Assembly: GCF_002224645.1 (NCBI RefSeq)
Contig: NZ_CP022121.1
Span: forward strand, 3,254,501-3,318,500
Reading direction: 5' to 3'
Source: Dehalobacterium formicoaceticum
GTDB lineage: Bacteria; Bacillota; Dehalobacteriia; Dehalobacteriales; Dehalobacteriaceae
DNA: 64,000 nucleotides
Part shown: positions 2,478-58,901 of the stretch, piece after piece
Position numbering within the stretch: the stretch's first letter is position 1
Layout: each line of letters opens with the position of its first letter
Position numbers and translations under genes: made by a program
Notes under the pieces: generated by a model
Seen by the model: only the letters and a program-made list of their open reading frames with translations
Database searches by the model: none
Told to the model about the DNA's origin: nothing

Positions 2478-2636
2478 ATGGCCAAAAAATCAACGAAACG
2501 TGATAACATTAGTAACAGTAAAATGAAGTCTTCTCTCTCCTCATCCAGCTGCCAAAGGCAAAAGGAATCTCCTTTAAGTCTGGAGCAATCTTTTCATGAA
2601 GCCCAATCCTCCAGCAGCGAGCAAGAAAAACTTTAA
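2478..2636 (+). CDS. Small hypothetical protein, 52 aa
   Basis: An unrecognised small ORF starting MAKKSTKRDN. It has a strong ribosome binding site, GAGGTGAT, five bases before the ATG, and is followed within 20 bp by a clear terminator, which supports it being real. It is basic at the N-terminus, then rich in Ser and Gln with an acidic tail, and has no membrane segment. Its short length and Ser/Gln/Lys composition recall small spore or cytosolic proteins, but that is only an impression. It is the only plus-strand gene in the first 14 kb. Confidence 0.55.
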   Translation: MAKKSTKRDNISNSKMKSSLSSSSCQRQKESPLSLEQSFHEAQSSSSEQEKL

Positions 2637-2655
2637 ACCCTTATCGGCAGTGAAT

Positions 2656-2684
2656 AAAAAATCCGCTGATTCAGCGGATTTTTT
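2656..2684. terminator. Bidirectional terminator
   Basis: AAAAAATCCGCTGA followed by TTCAGCGGATTTTTT forms a perfect hairpin with T tracts on both strands. It lies between the convergent 52-aa ORF and the htrA-like gene and can serve both. Confidence 0.88.
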
Positions 2685-2736
2685 ATTTCTTTTTTCCTTT
2701 TTCCTTTTCCCTTTTCCTTTTTATACCATCTGCAAG

Positions 2737-3909
2737 TTAACTTTCCTTTAAAATCACGGTAACTTTCCTTGTTTTCTGATTGCTATCCGTTACTTCTACA
2801 GTAACCTTATCTCCTGCCTTTTTGTTACTGATCAAGCCTACCAATTGTTCAATGGTTGTGATCTTTTGATTTTCAATTTTGGTGATCACCTCGCCGCTTT
2901 TAATACCGGCTTGATCGGCCCCGCTGCCGGGCACAACTTGATAGACATAGACTCCTTGCGCTAAGCCAAACCTTTGACTATCTGCCTCCGTTACGGTATT
3001 ACCCTGAATGCCCAGATAAGGACGCACAATCTTTTTATTTTCGATCAATTCCGTAATAATCGGTTTCGCTTCATTGATCGGGATGGAAAACCCCATCCCC
3101 TCCACGGAGGACTGAGCTAGTTTCACGGTGTTGATCCCGATTACCTGGCCTTTTTCATTGACCAGAGCGCCTCCGCTGTTGCCCGGATTGATGGCAGCAT
3201 CCGTTTGAATCAGATTCATGGTTTTATCCCCTAAAGCCAGCTCCCGATTCACCCCACTGATGATGCCGGCCGTAACCGACCCCGCAAAATTAGTACCCAT
3301 AGGACTTCCGATGGCTACCGCCAATTCTCCTACGGCAAGCTTTGCGGAATCTCCTAATTCGGCTGCCGGTAATCCGGTTTTATCCACCTTGATCACGGCC
3401 AGGTCCGTGGTTGCATCCCGACCGACTAAATTAGCCTTCAGTTTCGTCCCGTCCTGTAAGATCACGGTTAAGGCACTTGCGCCCTCCACCACATGGTTGT
3501 TAGTCACGATATGTCCTTGATTATCAATGATGATCCCGGAGCCGGTACCACTGCTTTCATAACGCTTCCCAAAAACATCTGTCTGGTTGGCGGTAATCTC
3601 AATTGCGACAATGGACGGCGATACCTTTTTGGCGATGGGCACCACCGGGGATGCGGTTAAATTCGATCCTGCCGAGGTTCCCGCTCCGGTACTTGCCGTT
3701 TGATTGATCGCCAGGCTGTCAGCGGCATAGGCCGAACTGTTTTCCCCCACTGACGCGGCCAGCAGTTGATTTACACCTAAACCGAATCCCGTGCCGATGA
3801 TGAAGGCACAGAGCAACAAAATAATAATCCCTTTTTTCCCTCCGGAAGGCTTCTTATTAATAACTTCCTGATAGCATCTTTCTTCATCATTGAATCTTTC
3901 TTCATCCAT
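2737..3909 (-). CDS. HtrA/DegP-like membrane-anchored serine protease with PDZ domain
   Basis: A 390-aa S1C-family protease for quality control of extracytoplasmic proteins. It has a short cytoplasmic N-terminus, one membrane anchor (about residues 27-50), a Ser/Thr/Ala-rich linker, the trypsin-like domain, and one PDZ domain (about 295-385). The catalytic triad is complete: His139 (TNNHVVEG), Asp169 (TTDLAVIKV) and Ser245 (NPGNSGGAL). It lies directly downstream of an OmpR-type two-component pair in the same orientation, an arrangement common for cell-envelope stress genes, so it may belong to that regulon. This is one of several possible paralogues (HtrA, HtrB, YyxA), so no symbol is given. 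Confidence 0.92.
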   Translation of the reverse strand: MDEERFNDEERCYQEVINKKPSGGKKGIIILLLCAFIIGTGFGLGVNQLLAASVGENSSAYAADSLAINQTASTGAGTSAGSNLTASPVVPIAKKVSPSIVAIEITANQTDVFGKRYESSGTGSGIIIDNQGHIVTNNHVVEGASALTVILQDGTKLKANLVGRDATTDLAVIKVDKTGLPAAELGDSAKLAVGELAVAIGSPMGTNFAGSVTAGIISGVNRELALGDKTMNLIQTDAAINPGNSGGALVNEKGQVIGINTVKLAQSSVEGMGFSIPINEAKPIITELIENKKIVRPYLGIQGNTVTEADSQRFGLAQGVYVYQVVPGSGADQAGIKSGEVITKIENQKITTIEQLVGLISNKKAGDKVTVEVTDSNQKTRKVTVILKES

Positions 3910-49793: not shown

Positions 49794-49828
49794 AAAGAGG
49801 ATACCAGACAACCTGGCTATCCTCTTCT
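49794..49828. terminator. Terminator between convergent genes
   Basis: AAGAGGATACCAG, ACAAC loop, CTGGCTATCCTCTT; A-rich before and T-containing after. It lies between the DUF4317 gene and the convergent nitroreductase gene. Confidence 0.75.
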
Positions 49829-49882: not shown

Positions 49883-50551
49883 TTAATCGAAAACCTCCAG
49901 CACTTCTTCCATTCTCCGCCTTGTCTTTGGCCGATGATCCCTGTTTTTATAGCCAAAGGCAATCATGCAAGACAGCCTGAAATGTTCAGGATCATAGACC
50001 CCTTCTTTAATCAGAATCTCCTCCACCTCTTCCCGGTCAAAGCCCTCGATGGGGGTTGAATCCACACCCAAGATGGCCGCAGCGGTCAGCATATTGGTAA
50101 AGGGAATATAGGTTTGTTTGCAGGTCCAGTCAAATAATGCTCTTTCACTTTCCATCAGCTTAAAATCTTTTTCCTGGAAATTCTTAAACTTTTCCGTTCG
50201 GGCCGGGATCTGATCATCAGGAAACTGCTGAATTTCCTTGGTAATATATTGAATATATTCGGAATCATAGCGCATATCCTGATTGCTCCGCGCCAGAATC
50301 AGTACAAAATGGCTGGCGCCGTCAATGGATTTTTCCGCCCCCCAGGAATATGGTCTTATTTTTTCTTTGATTGCTTGATTATTCAGTAAGACAAATTTCC
50401 ATGGTTCATAGCCCATGGAACTGGGCGAAAGTCTGCCCGCCTCCATGATCACCATAAAATCCTCATCTGCTACTCTCTTTTCCGGGTCATAGCCTTTGCA
50501 TGTATATCTATTTTGAAAGGTTTCTAAAATAAATTTTCTTGCCTCCTGCAT
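49883..50551 (-). CDS. Nitroreductase-family flavoprotein
   Basis: A 222-aa FMN-dependent oxidoreductase (NfsB type): NRYTCKGYDPEKRV at the start, SPSSMGYEPWKFVLL, and AAILGVDSTPIEGFD. Its start is 14 bp from the HAD gene's stop in the same direction, so it may belong to the RuBisCO-like-protein cluster. The natural substrate is unknown. Confidence 0.93.
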   Translation of the reverse strand: MQEARKFILETFQNRYTCKGYDPEKRVADEDFMVIMEAGRLSPSSMGYEPWKFVLLNNQAIKEKIRPYSWGAEKSIDGASHFVLILARSNQDMRYDSEYIQYITKEIQQFPDDQIPARTEKFKNFQEKDFKLMESERALFDWTCKQTYIPFTNMLTAAAILGVDSTPIEGFDREEVEEILIKEGVYDPEHFRLSCMIAFGYKNRDHRPKTRRRMEEVLEVFD

Positions 50552-50565
50552 TCCAGATCACCCCT

Positions 50566-51222
50566 TTAAACCATTAATTGTAAGGCTTGGGCAAAGTCAT
50601 CGATGAAAAGATCACATATCTCCTTCATTTCTGCTTCTTCCTTACCCCGGTTGGAATCGTCCCGCACCCCAACGACATAAAAACCGGCTTCCTTTGCCAC
50701 CTGACAAGCCAGCAAAGAATCTTCAAAGACCATACATTCCTTTGGTTCCATGTGAAATCTTTGGGCGCAATGGATAAAGATCTCCGGGCTGTCCTTGGTG
50801 GTCTTTAGCTCGTCAATGGTAATGATATAATCCAAAAATTGATCGGCCCCTGTTCTTTTTACGGCTGCTTCCGCAAAATCCCGCATATTGGCGGTTGCCA
50901 GGCAAATTTTTAGACCCTTCTTGGATAGCTGCTCCATAAATTCAAATACATGGGGCTTTAACTGAATTTTATCTCGATAAATTAAAGCTACCTCGTCTAT
51001 CATAAATTTAAAAATTTCTTCCGGGGAGGCCTCCAAATGGTATTCCTTTTTGATATAGGATGCCCCATCCCGGAAACCTTTGGGCTTAATCTCCCGTAAC
51101 ATGTCATCATTGGGACTGATGCCGTGCTTTGCCAAAAGCTTCTTCAGCATCTCATCAATATAATTCATCGAAGTTACAATGGTGCCGTCAAAATCAAGGA
51201 TAGCTAATTTTTTCTGATTCAT
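50566..51222 (-). CDS. HAD-superfamily phosphatase
   Basis: A 218-aa hydrolase with all HAD motifs: LDFDGTIVTS (nucleophile Asp10 in DFDGT), CLATANMRDFAEAA (motif II), and VFEDSLLACQVAKEAG (motif IV), with an alpha-helical cap as in phosphoglycolate phosphatase or beta-phosphoglucomutase. It follows the RuBisCO-like gene by 68 bp in the same direction. In the methionine salvage pathway a HAD phosphatase (MtnX) acts right after a RuBisCO-like enolase (MtnW), so it may similarly remove the phosphate that the FGGY kinase adds. Confidence 0.9.
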   Translation of the reverse strand: MNQKKLAILDFDGTIVTSMNYIDEMLKKLLAKHGISPNDDMLREIKPKGFRDGASYIKKEYHLEASPEEIFKFMIDEVALIYRDKIQLKPHVFEFMEQLSKKGLKICLATANMRDFAEAAVKRTGADQFLDYIITIDELKTTKDSPEIFIHCAQRFHMEPKECMVFEDSLLACQVAKEAGFYVVGVRDDSNRGKEEAEMKEICDLFIDDFAQALQLMV

Positions 51223-51289
51223 TTTATTATTTTAATCCATTTCATTTTTTTTGATTCATCAAATTCCAAGACTCTCACTTCATCCGACC

Positions 51290-52618
51290 TTAATTCGTCA
51301 ATTCAAAGATGGATTTATGAGGATCATAAATCCCCCACTGATCAATGGCCGCTTTTAATTCCCCATGTTCTTTGGCATAATCTGACAAAGGAATGTTCTT
51401 CATGGCCGCCTCTGCTGCCTGATTTAAGGCTTTGACACCTGCTTCCAAACCCAGGGGATGAGCATGCATCCCGGCCCCGGCGCCAATGACAATATCGTTG
51501 CCCAAATCCTGCATCATCGCCGGGATCATGCCCGGATGAATGCCGGCACAGGGACTGGGGAAGGTTGGTTTCAGATCATGGAAAGGAGCCTGTAATGCCT
51601 GGGCGACCCGCACATATCTTTCCTTCATCCCGGGAACTTTACCATAGGCACTGTTGTAGACGACAAGATCCGCACCGTCTAATCTCATAAATTTACCGTG
51701 CACCAAATGGGAGGACAGTCCGGTATTTTCCCCCAAATACATGGCTCCGGCAAAGCAGGGATGGGCAAGGAGGGGCACATTGATCTCCGAATCTTCCGCC
51801 AAAGCTGCCAAACTGCCGTATCCTGAAGCATGCACATTTAACATCAAGGCTTCCGCCCCCAGCTCAAGGGCTCTTTTTGCTTTTTGCAGCATAATGTCCT
51901 GGCGATTGGTGATATTGGGGAAATAAAGGACTTTTTTGCCGGTCTCCTCATAAACTTCGTGCACAACCTGAACACAGGCTTTAATGCGGTCTTCCAAAGG
52001 CGCATGCACCGGATCGGCAATTAATTCGTCATCTTTAATAATATCTACTCCGGCTAAAGCCAGTTGTCTGAACTGTCTTTTGATTACATCGACGGGAATC
52101 CCGGTGCAAGGCTTGATCATGGCCATTACGGGCGGCCTTTCTTCGATGTTCAATAATTTCCTTAAGCCCTGAATCCCAAATTTCGGCCCTTTAAAGCCGG
52201 CGGTAAAGCTCTTGGGAAATTCCAATTCCAATAGCTTTAAATTATTGGTCATGGAAATATTGCCGAATACCGTGCTTAAAAGCTCCGGCATTTGATGGCC
52301 GATATTTTTCCAGGGGAAAGCGATTCTTACGATGCAAGACTTTTCTCCTTCCGGTGCATAAGCCTCATATCCGGGGACGGGAAAGACGCCGATAACCCGA
52401 CCCACGTGTTTCCGTCTCACTTCTGGTGTTTCATCGGGTACCGGCATCCATGTGCCTGTTGTCTGCTCTACCGCCACTGCTCCGGCCCGCATTAAAAAGT
52501 CACTGGTCTCCGCTTTCATTAAATAGGTGGCCACAATAAATTCGTCTAAGTTCAATGATTCTGGCTGACAAAAAATAATGGGATCATATTTTGTATGCAT
52601 AATCTTTGCACGCTCCAT
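51290..52618 (-). CDS. RuBisCO-like protein (form IV)
   Basis: A 442-aa RuBisCO large-subunit homologue. By alignment to spinach numbering it keeps Glu60 (here Glu51), Thr65 (Thr56), Asn123 (Asn120), Lys175 (Lys169), the carbamate/metal triad Lys201-Asp203-Glu204 (Lys195, Asp197, Glu198 in IIKDDEL), His294 (His286) and Lys334 (Lys327). It has lost Lys177 (Cys171), Arg295 (Pro), His327 and the SGG phosphate loop (CAG). It cannot be a true carboxylase but keeps the metal centre for enolase or isomerase chemistry. It begins two bases after the FGGY kinase stop. The substrate is unknown. Confidence 0.92.
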   Translation of the reverse strand: MERAKIMHTKYDPIIFCQPESLNLDEFIVATYLMKAETSDFLMRAGAVAVEQTTGTWMPVPDETPEVRRKHVGRVIGVFPVPGYEAYAPEGEKSCIVRIAFPWKNIGHQMPELLSTVFGNISMTNNLKLLELEFPKSFTAGFKGPKFGIQGLRKLLNIEERPPVMAMIKPCTGIPVDVIKRQFRQLALAGVDIIKDDELIADPVHAPLEDRIKACVQVVHEVYEETGKKVLYFPNITNRQDIMLQKAKRALELGAEALMLNVHASGYGSLAALAEDSEINVPLLAHPCFAGAMYLGENTGLSSHLVHGKFMRLDGADLVVYNSAYGKVPGMKERYVRVAQALQAPFHDLKPTFPSPCAGIHPGMIPAMMQDLGNDIVIGAGAGMHAHPLGLEAGVKALNQAAEAAMKNIPLSDYAKEHGELKAAIDQWGIYDPHKSIFELTN

Positions 52619-52620
52619 TC

Positions 52621-54252
52621 TTATGAATTTTTATTTAATACAGGATTGCTTTTAAACAATTCCTCCTGATACCTGGCTAAATCGTCATCATTTTCGTGAT
52701 TCTTCATGGTTGGATCCAATTCCAGCTCCCGCAAATATGAACATACATTAAAAGTATCTGACATTTGAACCTTTAATAATCCCTGATGACAATAATAGGC
52801 ATTTCGATAATAAATGGCATGGGCTTTATTGGGCTGATATGTTTTATCCGGAATTAGCAATTGGGCCAAGGTTTCTTTGATATCGGAAATATCCCCCACA
52901 GCATAAGCTGCCACCAACGCGCTGGCCAGTGTAGCACCTTCTTTTCTCTTTAATGTTACACCTTTGGCACTCAGGGCATCTGATTTGATTTGATTCCAAA
53001 CATCACTTTTACTGCCCCCTTCAGTGAAGATCACGTTATTAATATCCACACCTACATTTCTGATTTTGTCTGTAAAAGTGACATATTCATAGGCGATGGA
53101 TTCCAGAATGGCCCGCCACAGAACTCCGGTATCGGTAGCACTGGACATATTTAAGAAACATCCGGTGGCATTGGCTGCTTCATTACATCCCCCTTGTAAA
53201 TAGGGGAAAAACATGGTGCCATTAGATCCCGGGGGAACATTTTCTGCCAGGGCATTGGCTTCTTCATAAAAACTATTATCCCCGGTCCGGCCGATGACTC
53301 TGTCCCGAAACCACTGGAGGGACAGTCCCCCGGTGCGAATATAACCCCAGTAATAGTAGGTATCCGGTAGTGTTCCCGTAGTGAAGTACAAACCGGAATT
53401 GCGGCTTAGTTCCTCATTGATGCCATCCACCATCACACCGAACATGGCGGCGGTTCCCGCCACATCAGCAGCCATACCCGGTGACACAATCCCGCAGCCT
53501 AAGAAGGACTGCATGGTATCTCCGGCACCTGCCACAATGGGAACGCCCTGGGGCAGTCCGGTAAATTCTGCGGCCTCTTGGGAAAGATTGCCCACGATAT
53601 CCCAGGGTTTTACGATGCGGGGCAATATCTCCATCGGGATGCCAAACATGTCCATCTGTTTCCGGGACCAGGTCTTTTCTACAGCGTTAAAGCCGATTAA
53701 CCAGCCGGAGATGGTGCTCCAGTCGATAAACATATCCTTGGCTTTTAATCCGGCTAATTTAGATAAAACATAAGGCCCGTTATTCATGATTTTGGCACCG
53801 TGTTTTTTAAATGCTTCATGATTTTTTAAGAGCCACATGGCGATGACAGTGGGCTGTAACGCCTCAACAATGGAGTTGCCGCTTTCTTCAATCCAAATCG
53901 GTTCACAATTTTCTTTAATCCACTTTGCTTCTTTTTCTGCCCGGGAATCCAGATAGGGAATAAATGGAGTGATGGCATTGCCCTCTTCATCCACCCCCAC
54001 AACCCCGCAAATGATCCCATCACCACAAATTGCCCGTACATCTCGGGGATCGATACCGCTTTTGGTTAAGCATTGTTTGATGCCATTTAATGCTGATGTC
54101 ACATAAGCATCAGCGTCCAACTCTGCCCAGCAGGGCTGAGGATATAATATTTCATTTGCTGTAGCATGTTGAGCAACACTATTAAAATTTTCATCATAAA
54201 GCACAACTTTGGTGCTTTGGGTTCCGCAATCGAGGCTGATATAGTATTTCAT
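52621..54252 (-). CDS. FGGY-family carbohydrate kinase
   Basis: A 543-aa sugar kinase. The N-terminal phosphate-binding motif is YISLDCGTQSTKVVLY; the second domain has GAGDTMQSFLGCG and the C-terminal signature FTEGGSKSDVWNQIKSDAL. The length and WAELDADAYV stretch recall xylulokinase-like members. It should phosphorylate a polyol or ketose that is then used by the adjacent RuBisCO-like protein. It follows the SorC regulator by 40 bp. Confidence 0.92.
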   Translation of the reverse strand: MKYYISLDCGTQSTKVVLYDENFNSVAQHATANEILYPQPCWAELDADAYVTSALNGIKQCLTKSGIDPRDVRAICGDGIICGVVGVDEEGNAITPFIPYLDSRAEKEAKWIKENCEPIWIEESGNSIVEALQPTVIAMWLLKNHEAFKKHGAKIMNNGPYVLSKLAGLKAKDMFIDWSTISGWLIGFNAVEKTWSRKQMDMFGIPMEILPRIVKPWDIVGNLSQEAAEFTGLPQGVPIVAGAGDTMQSFLGCGIVSPGMAADVAGTAAMFGVMVDGINEELSRNSGLYFTTGTLPDTYYYWGYIRTGGLSLQWFRDRVIGRTGDNSFYEEANALAENVPPGSNGTMFFPYLQGGCNEAANATGCFLNMSSATDTGVLWRAILESIAYEYVTFTDKIRNVGVDINNVIFTEGGSKSDVWNQIKSDALSAKGVTLKRKEGATLASALVAAYAVGDISDIKETLAQLLIPDKTYQPNKAHAIYYRNAYYCHQGLLKVQMSDTFNVCSYLRELELDPTMKNHENDDDLARYQEELFKSNPVLNKNS

Positions 54253-54291
54253 CTAGATCCCCCTTAACATTTTTGCTTTCATTTCTTTTAT

Positions 54292-55218
54292 TTATTGTAA
54301 CAATTCCCTGGCTGTCTCTGAGTTGGTACAAAAAATATCAATGATCCCTCCCTTTAAAGCAGCCCGTATGGCTTCTGTCTTTCCCAGTCCCTCGGCGGCA
54401 GCTATAACACAGGGACATTTTTTGATGTGCCTGATTTTTGCACCTAAAAACATATCGCTCTGTTCCTTTAGAATTTCGTTACCCTCTGCATCAATAAAGG
54501 AACCGGCAATAATTGCCTGTGCCCCCTTTTGATGGGCCGTTAAAATTTCTTCATTACTGATATCGCATTGACTAAGGCTGGATTCAGTGGTAGTTTGTCC
54601 TATTCCGGTAATAATGATGTCCAGTTTTTCGTAGGCTTCAAAAACCGGTTTGATGGCCGGATTATTGATTAATTCTTTTCTGATTTTTTCTTCCCGGATA
54701 ACCATGGGCGTACTTAATACCATATGACCGGCATTCAAACGTTCGGAAAATCTTCGGCAATTATTATTGGCATACCAGTCGATGCCCCGGGATGTCGCCC
54801 CGGCCAGCAAGGGAATAAATTTCAGATCTTCACTATTGTGAATCATCGTATAGCTGGAGCACATTGCCAGTGTTTTGCCGGCGGAGATGCCAATATAGTC
54901 ACCTGGACGTACTTTTGATGAAACAACTCTGGATAGTTCTTCGGCAATTGCTCTTAATGGTTCCTTGCCGTAGGTATCTACCACCAGGACATCGGAAAGA
55001 TGAAATTTATTTTTAATATCATCGGCTAATTTGTAAGCTTCAGAAAAAGGATCCTTGACGGTAATGGAAACAATGTTTTTTTCTCTGGCTTCAGATAAAA
55101 TCCTGCTCACTTGAGGCCGGGAGATATACATCTTCTTGGCAATTTCACTTTGACTTAAACCTTCAAGATAATATAATTTGCTAATATCTACCATCAATTT
55201 CAACCTGGTTGAATCCAT
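54292..55218 (-). CDS. SorC/DeoR-type sugar-binding regulator
   Basis: A 308-aa regulator: N-terminal HTH (YYLEGLSQSEIAKKMYISRPQVSRIL) and a C-terminal sugar-phosphate-binding domain (GISAGKTLA, ITGIGQTTTESS). I start it at MDSTRLK (ATG at 55218), the family's usual beginning; the frame is open 24 codons further. It heads the kinase-RLP-phosphatase cluster and probably senses the phosphorylated sugar made by the kinase. Confidence 0.91.
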   Translation of the reverse strand: MDSTRLKLMVDISKLYYLEGLSQSEIAKKMYISRPQVSRILSEAREKNIVSITVKDPFSEAYKLADDIKNKFHLSDVLVVDTYGKEPLRAIAEELSRVVSSKVRPGDYIGISAGKTLAMCSSYTMIHNSEDLKFIPLLAGATSRGIDWYANNNCRRFSERLNAGHMVLSTPMVIREEKIRKELINNPAIKPVFEAYEKLDIIITGIGQTTTESSLSQCDISNEEILTAHQKGAQAIIAGSFIDAEGNEILKEQSDMFLGAKIRHIKKCPCVIAAAEGLGKTEAIRAALKGGIIDIFCTNSETARELLQ

Positions 55219-55332
55219 CAAATCACATCTTTCAGCAAGTGTTATGATCATTCTAACTAAAATTATACTATAAGAAAAAGCATTCTTCAATCATTTGTGC
55301 ACTTATGAACATTTGTGCAATAAAACAGAGGG

Positions 55333-55399
55333 GGTAAAACAGGGGACGGTTCTTTGTTCGATGATGCTCATCGAACAAAGAACCGTCCCCTGTTTTACC
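55333..55399. repeat. Perfect 67-bp palindrome of the GGGGACGGTTC family
   Basis: Two 32-bp arms that are exact reverse complements (starting GGTAAAACAGGGGACGGTTC) separated by TGC. It contains the GGGGACGGTTC core seen at 20860-21008. It lies between the end of the nitrogenase-like operon and the start of sorC and could form a long RNA hairpin, though no T run follows. Confidence 0.95.
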
Positions 55400-55411
55400 A
55401 CTGTATAACCT

Positions 55412-56725
55412 TTAGAAATTAAGACCGTTTAATAGCTGCTCTACCAGCAGAAGACTCCCCTGGATACCTAAATGGGTTTTGGGGATCACATCGAGATAGC
55501 CCAGGCTGGGCAGTTCAATTTCGATGCCGCTGAAGATCTGCTCCTGTAATTTCAGCTGGGCAATGGTACTCCCGTTGGACAAGACAATATCGCTTTTGGC
55601 TGCAAAAATATCCCGCTGCCAGGCAGACTCCAGGTGGTGCTCCTTTAACAAATCCTGCACTTGTTCTTCATATAAACCAGGATCATCCTCCGGGAGATTT
55701 AGGCTTGTCGGCACCATGCCCAGGTATTGAAAAAGAAAATCCGTATAAGCCAGGAGGGCTGAGGACGGGGCTTCAACTGCGAAGGTCGTTCCCTTGGGCA
55801 GTCCGGTCAGAGCATATACATTGGAAATCGGAATATAGGCGTCGGCCCGGGCTTTTTCCAGGGCCGAGATCAAGGAACGGCTTGTAAAGGATGCTCCCCC
55901 GGCCAGGCTCTCCTCCCTTAAAACTCCTTCAAAATAGGACTGAGTCAGATCGAAGCCGATGGGCAGCCCCCTGTCAAATAAAAAGTAGGGCATCCCCAAA
56001 GCTTCTTGCAGATATTTTGCCACCTCCAGACCTAATTCCGGATAGAGGATCACATTCAGGTCGGCCTGGGGAATTTTTTTGATTTCCTCCAGGCTGGTAT
56101 CTGCGCACAAAACACAATTGATCTGGAGACCGCATGCATTGAAAAGCCGTTCCATTTCCTGAATATCTCCTAGAAAATATTTATTGTAAATGGAAATTCC
56201 GATTAAGTTGACCAAATTGCCCTGTTTCTTGCCCGGTGCTGTTTCTAGAGGAAGACTTTTCAACAAGACAATCAATGCATCCTGAAAGCCACGATAAAAG
56301 TTTTGGGAATATCCGGGATTCTCGATGGTAATCACATGGGAATGGTGAATTTTTTTGGCGGCAATCCCAGCCAAATCGTCTCCGATTAAAGCAGCCCCGG
56401 GTGAATTGACGATCGCCACTAAATCCTGATCCTGTTTGTCAATATAATCTAATAAATCATTCAGTTTCTCCCCGCTGCCATATACATAATCATAGCTGTC
56501 CAGATAGGTACAAGGTACTCTGGGTTGTTTAAAATAAAATTTATCCGGATAGTTCAGGGGGTCGAAGGATGTTTGCCTGGGAAAGCGGCTGTCGGAAATA
56601 GCGCTGTGGTAATATTTGCAGCCTGTAGGCCCGTTGATAATCACCACGGACTTGTTGATGCCTTCCAAAGCAAAAACGATGCCCGATAAACTATCGGGTG
56701 TGATATTTTTGGAATAATATTTCAT
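55412..56725 (-). CDS. Nitrogenase component 1-like protein, NifK-type
   Basis: A 437-aa member of the NifD/NifK/BchN/BchB superfamily. Near the N-terminus it has Cys36 (NGPTGCKYYH) and Cys72 (RVPCTYLDS), at positions used for cluster ligands, but the third position is Pro109 in NSPGAALIGDDL where other members have TC before xxxxIGDDL. The C-terminal half has no FeMo-cofactor His/Cys that I can identify. Its start overlaps the end of the NifH-NifD fusion by 35 bp, so the two are translationally coupled and probably form a heteromer like NifDK or BchNB. It is the last gene of the operon. Confidence 0.87.
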   Translation of the reverse strand: MKYYSKNITPDSLSGIVFALEGINKSVVIINGPTGCKYYHSAISDSRFPRQTSFDPLNYPDKFYFKQPRVPCTYLDSYDYVYGSGEKLNDLLDYIDKQDQDLVAIVNSPGAALIGDDLAGIAAKKIHHSHVITIENPGYSQNFYRGFQDALIVLLKSLPLETAPGKKQGNLVNLIGISIYNKYFLGDIQEMERLFNACGLQINCVLCADTSLEEIKKIPQADLNVILYPELGLEVAKYLQEALGMPYFLFDRGLPIGFDLTQSYFEGVLREESLAGGASFTSRSLISALEKARADAYIPISNVYALTGLPKGTTFAVEAPSSALLAYTDFLFQYLGMVPTSLNLPEDDPGLYEEQVQDLLKEHHLESAWQRDIFAAKSDIVLSNGSTIAQLKLQEQIFSGIEIELPSLGYLDVIPKTHLGIQGSLLLVEQLLNGLNF

Positions 56726-58901
56726 CTTTTTTCCACCCTTCCACCAGATTTATCTGCATAAGCTTGGCCCATCTTTTGGCCAAGCACAATCCGGAAAAGA
56801 AACCCACATCGGGGGTATAGGGGATGGTATCGGCCACCACCTTCCCTTCCAAATCGGAAATGGCATAATTGGACAGGAAAAGATCCGGCCTTAGTTCTTG
56901 AATATCCTTTTCCCGGGCTCTCGGATCATATTTTTCCTCCAGGGGAAATTGACCGCCAAAGCGAGTCACAAAAACAGCATCCTGAGAAAAATCCAAAATG
57001 CCGACCTTTACAATCTCCATCCCGGCATCCAGGGCCACTTCCAAAAGCCAATCCAGTTGATGGTTGTAGGCAACCACCATTAATTTTTTCCCTTTTAGCA
57101 CCTTTTTCAATGCTTCTATTTCACGCCGGTAAACCGCTTCATTGTCCGCAATAACTTGAGGCAGCAGATGGGTCTTATGGAAAAAATCCGCCACCTTGGC
57201 CAGCCAGTTTTTCGTTTCATAAAAACCGATGGGGAACGGATCATCCAAAAAAACCGCCCCATACTCCTTTTGAAAAAAGCGTTTTAGCAGCCGCCCGGTA
57301 TAATCCTGGTGGGCCAGGATATTCAAAGGCGCCCTCATAAAATTCCGGATCTGATCCACAGTGGTTTCGCACAAATAACGGCAGTTGACCGTGATGCCTA
57401 AAGGGGTCAGTAAATCTGTAATGGCAGTGAAATTATCAGGGGTGTTTTTGGCCACCACCTTTTCCGAGATGATGTTTACGGTATCCGGCAAGGGAGATGC
57501 TTCCCGGTCAATCAAAGCTTTGGCAATGTTGAGATAGGCCAGGATCATGCCCTGAAGATAATCTCCTCCGATATTGCCGTCGGTGACAATGGGGATAACA
57601 GGTAGATCTTCTTCCTCCAAAGCGGCCATGGCGGTAAGGTCATCTCCGATGATGCCTGAAGGACAGGTACTGACCAGGATCACCGCCTTGGGCTGATCTC
57701 TTTTGGCCTCCTCTACCTTTCCCTTGAGCAGCTGGGCACCGCCAAAGACCATGGTTTTTTCATCCATTTTTGTCGACATCAGATTTGGGGCGATAGATAC
57801 AGGCAAAAGGCTGCCCCGTTCGAAAAGGCCCCTTCTGCCGCAAGAAGTCACCCCTTGATAGGTAATATAAGTGCAGCTTTTCGGCCCATGGGCCACGACA
57901 ATGGCATCCTGCACATGGACACTTATGGTAACAGCCCCATTAAAGGCACAGCCCCGCAGGGGTTCCTGGGAAACAATGCTCTTGGAAAAATATTGATCAT
58001 CATCCAGTTTGGTAGGGTATGCCTCTGCTCCCGCCATAATTTCTGACGGGGCAGCATCCTCCCTTTGCTCCGGTTTTTTAGGAACCGGGGACTGCTCCAG
58101 TCCTAAGACAATCTTTTCTAATTCTTCATCTGTTAAAGGCTTGGCAGCATACAATAGGGGACCTGCGATAATCTTTTGAGCCAGTTCCTTAAAGATCCCG
58201 GCTAGGGGCGAATGACTCCATCCTTCCACGATAGTCTGCCCGGTTTTTTCACCCAGGGCAAATTCATCCCTTCTGGGAATGACCGCAAAGACAGGCAGCT
58301 CCACCGCCTGGGCAAAGCCTTCCACCCGTTCCTTTTCACCCTGCACGTTACGCATATTCCAAATCAGTCCGGCCACCCGTTTTTTACCGTAATCGTAATT
58401 TTTAATACCCCGCAAAATATTATTGGCCGCATAGAGGGACATGAACTCTCCTGAGGTAACGATATAAATTTCATCGGCATATTCCTCACGAATAGGTACG
58501 GCAAATCCTCCGCAGACCACATCCCCCAGCACATCGTAGAGCACCAGGTCATAGGCGCGCTTCTGCAGATTCAAGGCATTGAGCAGTTCAAAGGTGGATA
58601 AAATGCCTCTCCCCGCACACCCCACCCCGGGCTCGGGGCCTCCCGCCTCAATACAGTCAACGCCGCCAAATCCAGTGCAGAGGATATCACTCAATTGATA
58701 ATCCATAGGATTGGTGTTCTTCAGATAATCCAGTACGGTTTGAATTTTTTGACCTTTGAGCAGCAATCGGGTGGAATCATGCTTGGGATCACAGCCGATT
58801 TGCAGCACATGCCGGTCTGCTTGGGACAAAGCGGCGGAAATATTGGCGCAGATGGTGGATTTGCCGATGCCGCCTTTGCCGTAGATGGCAACCTTTTTCA
58901 T
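56691..58901 (-). CDS. NifH-NifD-like fusion protein (reductase plus nitrogenase component 1)
   Basis: A 736-aa protein joining two components that are normally separate. Residues 1-~265 are a NifH/BchL-type iron-protein: P-loop GKGGIGKST (8-16), QIGCDPKHDST, and both [4Fe-4S] ligands Cys95 (GVGCAGRG) and Cys130 (DVVCGGFA). A Pro/Glu-rich linker (~270-305) leads to a NifD-type domain with the three cluster cysteines Cys318 (RGCAFNG), Cys343 (GPKSCTY) and Cys413 (STCPSGIIGDDL). The fusion means a fixed 1:1 ratio of electron donor and acceptor, unlike nitrogenase. It follows the propeller gene by 41 bp. Likely ATP-driven reduction of an unknown substrate. Confidence 0.92.
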   Translation of the reverse strand: MKKVAIYGKGGIGKSTICANISAALSQADRHVLQIGCDPKHDSTRLLLKGQKIQTVLDYLKNTNPMDYQLSDILCTGFGGVDCIEAGGPEPGVGCAGRGILSTFELLNALNLQKRAYDLVLYDVLGDVVCGGFAVPIREEYADEIYIVTSGEFMSLYAANNILRGIKNYDYGKKRVAGLIWNMRNVQGEKERVEGFAQAVELPVFAVIPRRDEFALGEKTGQTIVEGWSHSPLAGIFKELAQKIIAGPLLYAAKPLTDEELEKIVLGLEQSPVPKKPEQREDAAPSEIMAGAEAYPTKLDDDQYFSKSIVSQEPLRGCAFNGAVTISVHVQDAIVVAHGPKSCTYITYQGVTSCGRRGLFERGSLLPVSIAPNLMSTKMDEKTMVFGGAQLLKGKVEEAKRDQPKAVILVSTCPSGIIGDDLTAMAALEEEDLPVIPIVTDGNIGGDYLQGMILAYLNIAKALIDREASPLPDTVNIISEKVVAKNTPDNFTAITDLLTPLGITVNCRYLCETTVDQIRNFMRAPLNILAHQDYTGRLLKRFFQKEYGAVFLDDPFPIGFYETKNWLAKVADFFHKTHLLPQVIADNEAVYRREIEALKKVLKGKKLMVVAYNHQLDWLLEVALDAGMEIVKVGILDFSQDAVFVTRFGGQFPLEEKYDPRAREKDIQELRPDLFLSNYAISDLEGKVVADTIPYTPDVGFFSGLCLAKRWAKLMQINLVEGWKKDEILFQKYHTR

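Follow-up and report, generated by a model that had tools for sequence, protein, structure and literature searches.

To our knowledge, activities have been assigned to few RuBisCO-like proteins (RLPs), nearly all of them in the salvage of sulfur compounds or sugar acids. In RuBisCO itself, the binding site for the C5 phosphate of RuBP includes R295 and H327, that for the C1 phosphate end includes T65, W66, K334, G381, G403, and G404, and N123, the carbamate, and D203/E204 serve the metal and the enediolate. In MtnW of G. kaustophilus, Lys98 is reportedly the catalytic base, as described by Imker in 2007. An FGGY kinase, a sugar-binding SorC-type regulator, and a ketose-phosphate isomerase are found together in the erythritol operon eryABCD. 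The organism considered here, Dehalobacterium formicoaceticum, has long been called an obligate dichloromethane degrader.

The complete genome of D. formicoaceticum DMC (CP022121) has 3,766,545 bp (PMC5597755), and the window analyzed is a 64,000-nucleotide stretch of it. Within this window, sorC, FGGY kinase, RLP, HAD phosphatase, and nitroreductase genes lie in a row on the minus strand (49883-55215; Table 1). The first four had been read as consecutive in an earlier note on this DNA, a reading borne out by the minus-strand open reading frames and by Pfam profiles. In gene order the gaps are 39, 2, 67, and 14 nt, and thus the five genes probably form a single operon. An alternative TTG start of sorC is possible upstream, at 55290. 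Profile searches showed that the RLP is the sole PF00016 match and the kinase the sole FGGY_N match in the genome. No sugar transporter gene lies within the operon.

Table 1 Features of the RLP operon, in window coordinates
Feature	Position	Strand	Details
SorC-family regulator (HTH + PF04198 sugar-phosphate-binding domain)	54292..55215	-	307 aa from ATG; PF04198 E 8e-50
FGGY carbohydrate kinase	52621..54252	-	543 aa; PF00370 + PF02782
RuBisCO-like protein (RLP), form IV, 'KPC' branch	51290..52618	-	442 aa; PF02788 + PF00016 (E 6.5e-46)
HAD-IA phosphatase (predicted)	50566..51222	-	218 aa; PF13419 E 3e-25
FMN nitroreductase-family protein, probable last operon gene	49883..50551	-	222 aa; PF00881
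Promoter-like site upstream of sorC, TTGAAG-17-TATAAT	55262..55290	-	consensus scan only; such sites about as many in shuffles
Terminator-like hairpin after nitroreductase gene	49803..49817	-	consensus scan only

A perfect 32-nt inverted repeat with a 3-nt loop (window 55333-55399) separates the operon from nitrogenase-like genes located upstream of it. Its core, GGGGACGGTTCTTTGTTC, has 17 exact matches in the genome and none in a reversed control, and the repeat looks like a REP-type element placed between two gene clusters. Beyond it, window 55412-58901 encodes a 736-aa fusion of a NifH-like reductase with a NifD-like domain, alongside a second component-1-like protein of 437 aa, a pair that scored below the cut-offs of all the named nitrogenase families listed. 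Because the repeat intervenes and only one related locus is similar, these genes were rejected as part of the operon. In that locus (L064, a Peptococcaceae MAG), a distant nitrogenase-like component gene (505-2034, 28% identity to the window fusion) lies divergently beside an RLP gene (2574-3881, 53% identity).

The RLP has the RuBisCO fold, as given by an AlphaFold model (pLDDT 90.0) having PDB entry 2oem as its best fold match (40% identity). Eighteen RuBisCO active-site positions were mapped onto the protein through a MAFFT alignment with RuBisCO rows. The RLP keeps 12 of these (E60, T65, W66, N123, K175, K201, D203, E204, H294, K334, G381, and G404 in RuBisCO numbering) and replaces six (K177 by Cys171, R295 by Pro287, H327 by Val320, S379 by Cys357, G380 by Ala358, and G403 by Ala382). 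The carbamate lysine and metal acids K201/D203/E204 correspond to K195/D197/E198, and S379-G380-G381 of RuBisCO reads C357-A358-G359. The alignment thus confirmed what the earlier note had seen: carbamate and metal residues kept, Cys for K177, Pro for R295, a hydrophobic residue for H327, and CAG for SGG. With its fold, both Pfam domains, the metal and carbamate residues kept and the carboxylation residues lost, the protein is a form IV member of the RuBisCO superfamily, and with all six residues above replaced carboxylation would not be expected. Since both residues for the second phosphate, R295 and H327, are lost, the pattern suggests a substrate having one phosphate, at the C1 end. The cysteine at K177 is common to all close relatives and is therefore a marker of the branch rather than a peculiarity of the D. 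formicoaceticum protein.

The best fold matches of the model, 2oem among them, are MtnW structures, which raises the possibility that the RLP is a divergent MtnW (2,3-diketo-5-methylthiopentyl-1-phosphate enolase) working with an unusual kinase and phosphatase. The kinase-RLP-phosphatase order resembles MtnK-MtnW-MtnX, and NCBIfam model PRK09549 (MtnW) scored 409 against a cut-off of 409. However, the stricter MtnW model TIGR03332 failed (361 of 513.6 bits). The earlier note had considered that the residue pattern matched no form IV activity known to it. The pattern stands, but every MtnW row likewise has Pro at R295 and a hydrophobic residue at H327, which means that these two replacements do not separate the RLP from MtnW. 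The separating positions are E60, T65, N123, and K334, all kept in the RLP; MtnW rows have G, S, and K at the first three and S at K334. Counting from the alignment identifies the lysine in the N123 column as G. kaustophilus Lys98, a position occupied by Asn120 in the RLP and by Lys in 8/8 MtnW rows.

Two RLP trees were built, one of 78 rows and a careful tree of 50 rows, both without DeepYkr (R. rubrum RLP) rows. The window RLP groups with those of L053 and L054 (support 100/96) inside a 9-row clade (100/100), itself inside a 12-row clade (99/99) with hosts in Bacillota, Synergistota, and Thermodesulfobacteriota. A group of 16-18 rows that adds gut Lachnospiraceae is more weakly supported (92/87; SH-aLRT 89). 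MtnW forms its own clade (100/100) with the window RLP outside it in both trees, and a topology joining MtnW with the 12 RLP rows was rejected (p-AU 0.019). Note that two KPC rows (L078 and L096) group weakly with MtnW (87/62) and that the wider KPC branch may not be one clade.

D. formicoaceticum has methionine salvage genes elsewhere: mtnP, mtnA, a FucA-like class II aldolase gene, and a deaminase-like amidohydrolase gene lie together at ~1.426-1.430 Mb (L146 6104-9944). MtnP and MtnA both exceeded their model cut-offs, and the aldolase gave 194.8 bits to the fuculose-phosphate aldolase model and 82 bits to MtnB (cut-off 137). These genes correspond to those of the DHAP shunt (PMC5893883), and this cluster likely provides D. 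formicoaceticum with a DHAP shunt for MTA. As MTA salvage has its own genes about 1.9 Mb from the RLP gene (at 3.306 Mb), the RLP is not accounted for by methionine salvage. The earlier note had stated that no mtn genes are present, which holds for the cluster but fails for the genome. The mtnX and mtnB genes found beside reference MtnW genes are absent from the window cluster. Moreover, the classic pathway requires O2 for its final reaction, and D. formicoaceticum is a strict anaerobe. Given the clade, the Lys98 position, the neighbors, and the separate MTA genes, we rejected the MtnW identity: by these comparisons the RLP is not MtnW, and a divergent MtnW is quite improbable. The contention of the earlier note that the cluster does not serve methionine salvage is supported by the clade, the topology test, and the differing neighbors; of the characterized clades in the trees, MtnW and OiaX among them, none firmly contains the RLP with the same neighbors.

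A DeepYkr-like RLP would act on a thio- or deoxy-pentulose-1-phosphate derived from by-products of S-adenosylmethionine, the FGGY kinase supplying the phosphate. The R. rubrum RLP does catalyze carbonyl migration on a ketose-1-phosphate (PMC5893883, PMC6302742), and in L053 (on a contig shared with L034) a nucleobase permease gene and an ADP-ribosylglycohydrolase-family gene adjoin the kinase and RLP genes. However, MtnP and MtnA already yield 5-methylthioribulose-1-phosphate without an FGGY kinase, and related RLPs have sugar transporters of the PTS, ABC, and MFS types as neighbors. The RLP is also much nearer to MtnW (313 bits) than to 3qfw (117 bits), the latter presumably R. palustris RLP1. 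We consider this role improbable. A sugar-acid enzyme resembling OiaX and the DUF1537-paired RLPs, which would decarboxylate or transcarboxylate a 3-oxo-acid phosphate, shares the theme of a kinase paired with an RLP. In contrast, the OiaX model gave only 209.8 of 700 bits, R295 (Pro in the window RLP) is kept in OiaX/DUF1537-type proteins, the kinases belong to a different superfamily, and the OiaX and DUF1537-paired RLPs form a separate clade in the 78-row tree. On model score and R295 we rejected this type as very improbable.

The kinase has both FGGY domains, and its catalytic Asp245 (GAGD) is invariant in the alignment; the statement of the earlier note that its family differs from that of MtnK is correct. 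Twelve NCBIfam models matched, and the kinase stayed far below the cut-off of each (233 bits against 380 for xylulokinase, 160 against 528 for the AI-2 kinase); by these equivalog cut-offs the kinase belongs to no characterized FGGY subfamily. Attempts to name its sugar from the nearest relatives (plasmid matches of 25-28% identity, without a specific name) or from orthologs in RLP-free genomes (uninformative gene contexts) were unsuccessful. The nearest solved relatives of the SorC protein are DeoR, Lmo0547, SorC, and LsrR. As LsrK and LsrR likewise belong to the FGGY and SorC families, and isomerization of DPD-phosphate is enolization chemistry, the operon could process phospho-AI-2 with the RLP replacing LsrG. 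However, the AI-2 kinase score above, the 101 of 486 bits of the regulator to LsrR, and the lack of an lsr-type cluster around the RLP or those of its relatives make this scarcely credible, and the AI-2 route was rejected on the model scores.

Five other loci (L053, L054, L055, L056, and L058) have an ortholog of the kinase (55-75% identity) clustered with an RLP of the same clade, and relatives of 41-42% identity are clustered with RLPs in L062 and L063, each of which carries a second FGGY gene. The two genes are adjacent in L053, L054, and L058 and share a cluster in the other four loci. Because of this recurrence, the kinase-RLP pairing is more than chance. Genomes with no RLP match (G045, G111, G328, and G408) also encode kinase orthologs (46-49% identity), and thus the kinase is not bound to the RLP. 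Many anaerobes have the same residue pattern and kinase pairing, and by these sequence criteria the RLP is a member of a widespread uncharacterized branch and not an isolated oddity. FGGY kinase genes were also seen near KPC-branch RLPs of archaea (L108, L115, and L121), including Bathyarchaeota and Thorarchaeota MAGs.

The remaining operon genes have their own counterparts beside related RLPs. SorC orthologs (44-50% identity) accompany the same kinase and RLP in L054, L055, and L058. The FDFDGT-type and FEDS motifs of the HAD protein are conserved in aligned relatives, and HAD relatives (40-43% identity) lie beside the RLP in L054, L055, and L056. A nitroreductase ortholog (65% identity) directly follows HAD in L054, the same order as in the window, and L059 has a different nitroreductase gene just upstream of the RLP gene. 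Conceivably the kinase and RLP are the whole pathway, the HAD and nitroreductase being unrelated and the RLP product entering central metabolism as a sugar phosphate. HAD is absent from L058, an SDR takes its place in L057 and L059, and a paralog of 67% identity is encoded beside unrelated genes in the same genome (1525826-1526488; L192 8827-9489). Owing to this paralog and the absence from L058, the place of HAD in the pathway is unsure. However, the 14-nt HAD-nitroreductase gap, the order shared with L054, and the recurrence of four phosphatase families beside the RLP branch make a pathway of the pair alone rather unlikely. These families are HAD-IA, Cof-type HAD-IIB, 2-phosphosulfolactate phosphatase-like, and inositol monophosphatase, and their recurrence suggests that the product is dephosphorylated.

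Treating the RLP rows having the window-type kinase as one clade was rejected (p-AU 1e-51), and in L057 and L059, the sisters of L056, an SDR and another FGGY subfamily (~25% identity) replace the window-type kinase and HAD. Hence, the RLP is the constant part around which kinases are exchanged. The partners of sister RLPs that make sugar phosphates are FGGYa, an SDR plus FGGYb, and a galactitol-type PTS plus a GlpAB-like polyol-phosphate dehydrogenase. In gut Lachnospiraceae (L066-L070 and L128), genes for GlpA- and GlpB-like dehydrogenase subunits lie beside the RLP gene, and most of these loci add a galactitol-type PTS and a Cof-type HAD phosphatase. Sugar transporter genes adjoin the RLP clusters of L055, L057, L061, and L062, and the L060 locus comprises genes for an inositol monophosphatase-family protein, the RLP, a xylose isomerase-like barrel protein, FGGY, and HAD. 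In loci from Deltaproteobacteria and one Spirochaetes MAG (L109, L113, L122, L126, and others) the order is FGGY, class III aminotransferase, RLP, and a 357-aa protein that has no Pfam match. Syntrophs and Ca. Formimonas warabiya (L093, L071, L075, L082, and others) have RLP-PF09370-UPF0261-PF09370 clusters, often but not always with a 2-phosphosulfolactate phosphatase-like gene before UPF0261. These clusters are a second RLP pathway without assignment.

The reading that we favor, to which we give a probability of about 0.5, is that the kinase makes a ketose-1-phosphate, the RLP shifts its carbonyl or epimerizes it via an enediolate, and the phosphatase releases the product. The SorC-controlled operon would handle a sugar-type compound, in which a terminal hydroxyl would be phosphorylated by the FGGY kinase, yielding a monophosphate of the type CH2OP-CO-CHOH-R. 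Using Mg2+ and carbamylated Lys195, the RLP would remove the proton next to the carbonyl to form a RuBisCO-like 2,3-enediolate and reprotonate it elsewhere without carboxylation, acting as an isomerase, epimerase, or enolase. Dephosphorylation by the HAD protein would follow, perhaps with reduction of the product by the nitroreductase-family protein. Gene order, kinase-RLP recurrence, clade, the residues kept and lost, and the modeled fold are the direct observations behind this scheme. Enolization and a monophosphate substrate we infer from the established chemistry of the RuBisCO superfamily; the exact sugar, and the action of the phosphatase on the RLP product, are guesses. By analogy with oxidation of G3P to DHAP, the GlpAB/PTS neighborhoods support a ketose phosphate having its carbonyl beside the phosphate-bearing carbon. 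For the branch as a whole, it is a tentative proposal, a little short of an even chance, that the RLPs are enediolate isomerases or epimerases of ketose-1-phosphates that come from FGGY kinases or from a galactitol-type PTS plus a GlpAB-like dehydrogenase, and that they form the center of an anaerobic pathway for sugars or polyols across Bacillota, Synergistota, and Thermodesulfobacteriota.

An RLP branch that serves sugar kinases and keeps most of the enediolate machinery would extend the range of the fold and bear on the origin of RuBisCO chemistry. As the PRK09549 model was met exactly at its cut-off, RLPs of this branch may be misnamed methionine-salvage enolases. If the reading is true, D. 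formicoaceticum gains an unrecognized growth or salvage substrate and a sugar pathway beyond dichloromethane. No sugar growth of this organism is reported in PMC10327494, and in a limited literature collection we found no paper treating RLPs together with FGGY kinases.

Among known systems, MtnW (YkrW) is like the RLP in sequence (~40% identity), fold, carbamate lysine and metal acids, Pro for R295, and a hydrophobic residue for H327, and its gene is also followed by a phosphatase gene. In contrast, the RLP has Asn120 for Lys98, E60, T65, and K334 kept, a KPC motif rather than KG/KS, an FGGY kinase rather than MtnK, a separate clade, and MTA genes elsewhere in the genome. The DeepYkr RLP of R. 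rubrum and R. palustris (5-methylthioribulose-1-phosphate isomerase) shares the proposed carbonyl migration on a ketose-1-phosphate, but is distant in sequence (117 bits to 3qfw; trees without DeepYkr rows), and no methylthio context was found. OiaX and the RLPs paired with DUF1537 (four-carbon acid sugar) kinases likewise have a kinase gene next to the RLP gene in sugar catabolism, although their kinase superfamily is another, R295 is kept, and the OiaX score of the window RLP is far below the cut-off. The eryABCD operon, compared by gene families, has the same theme of FGGY kinase, SorC-type regulator, and isomerase, but its isomerase is not an RLP. RuBisCO forms I-III share with the RLP the fold and 12/18 of the active-site residues examined, whereas K177, R295, H327, S379, G380, and G403 are replaced in the RLP.
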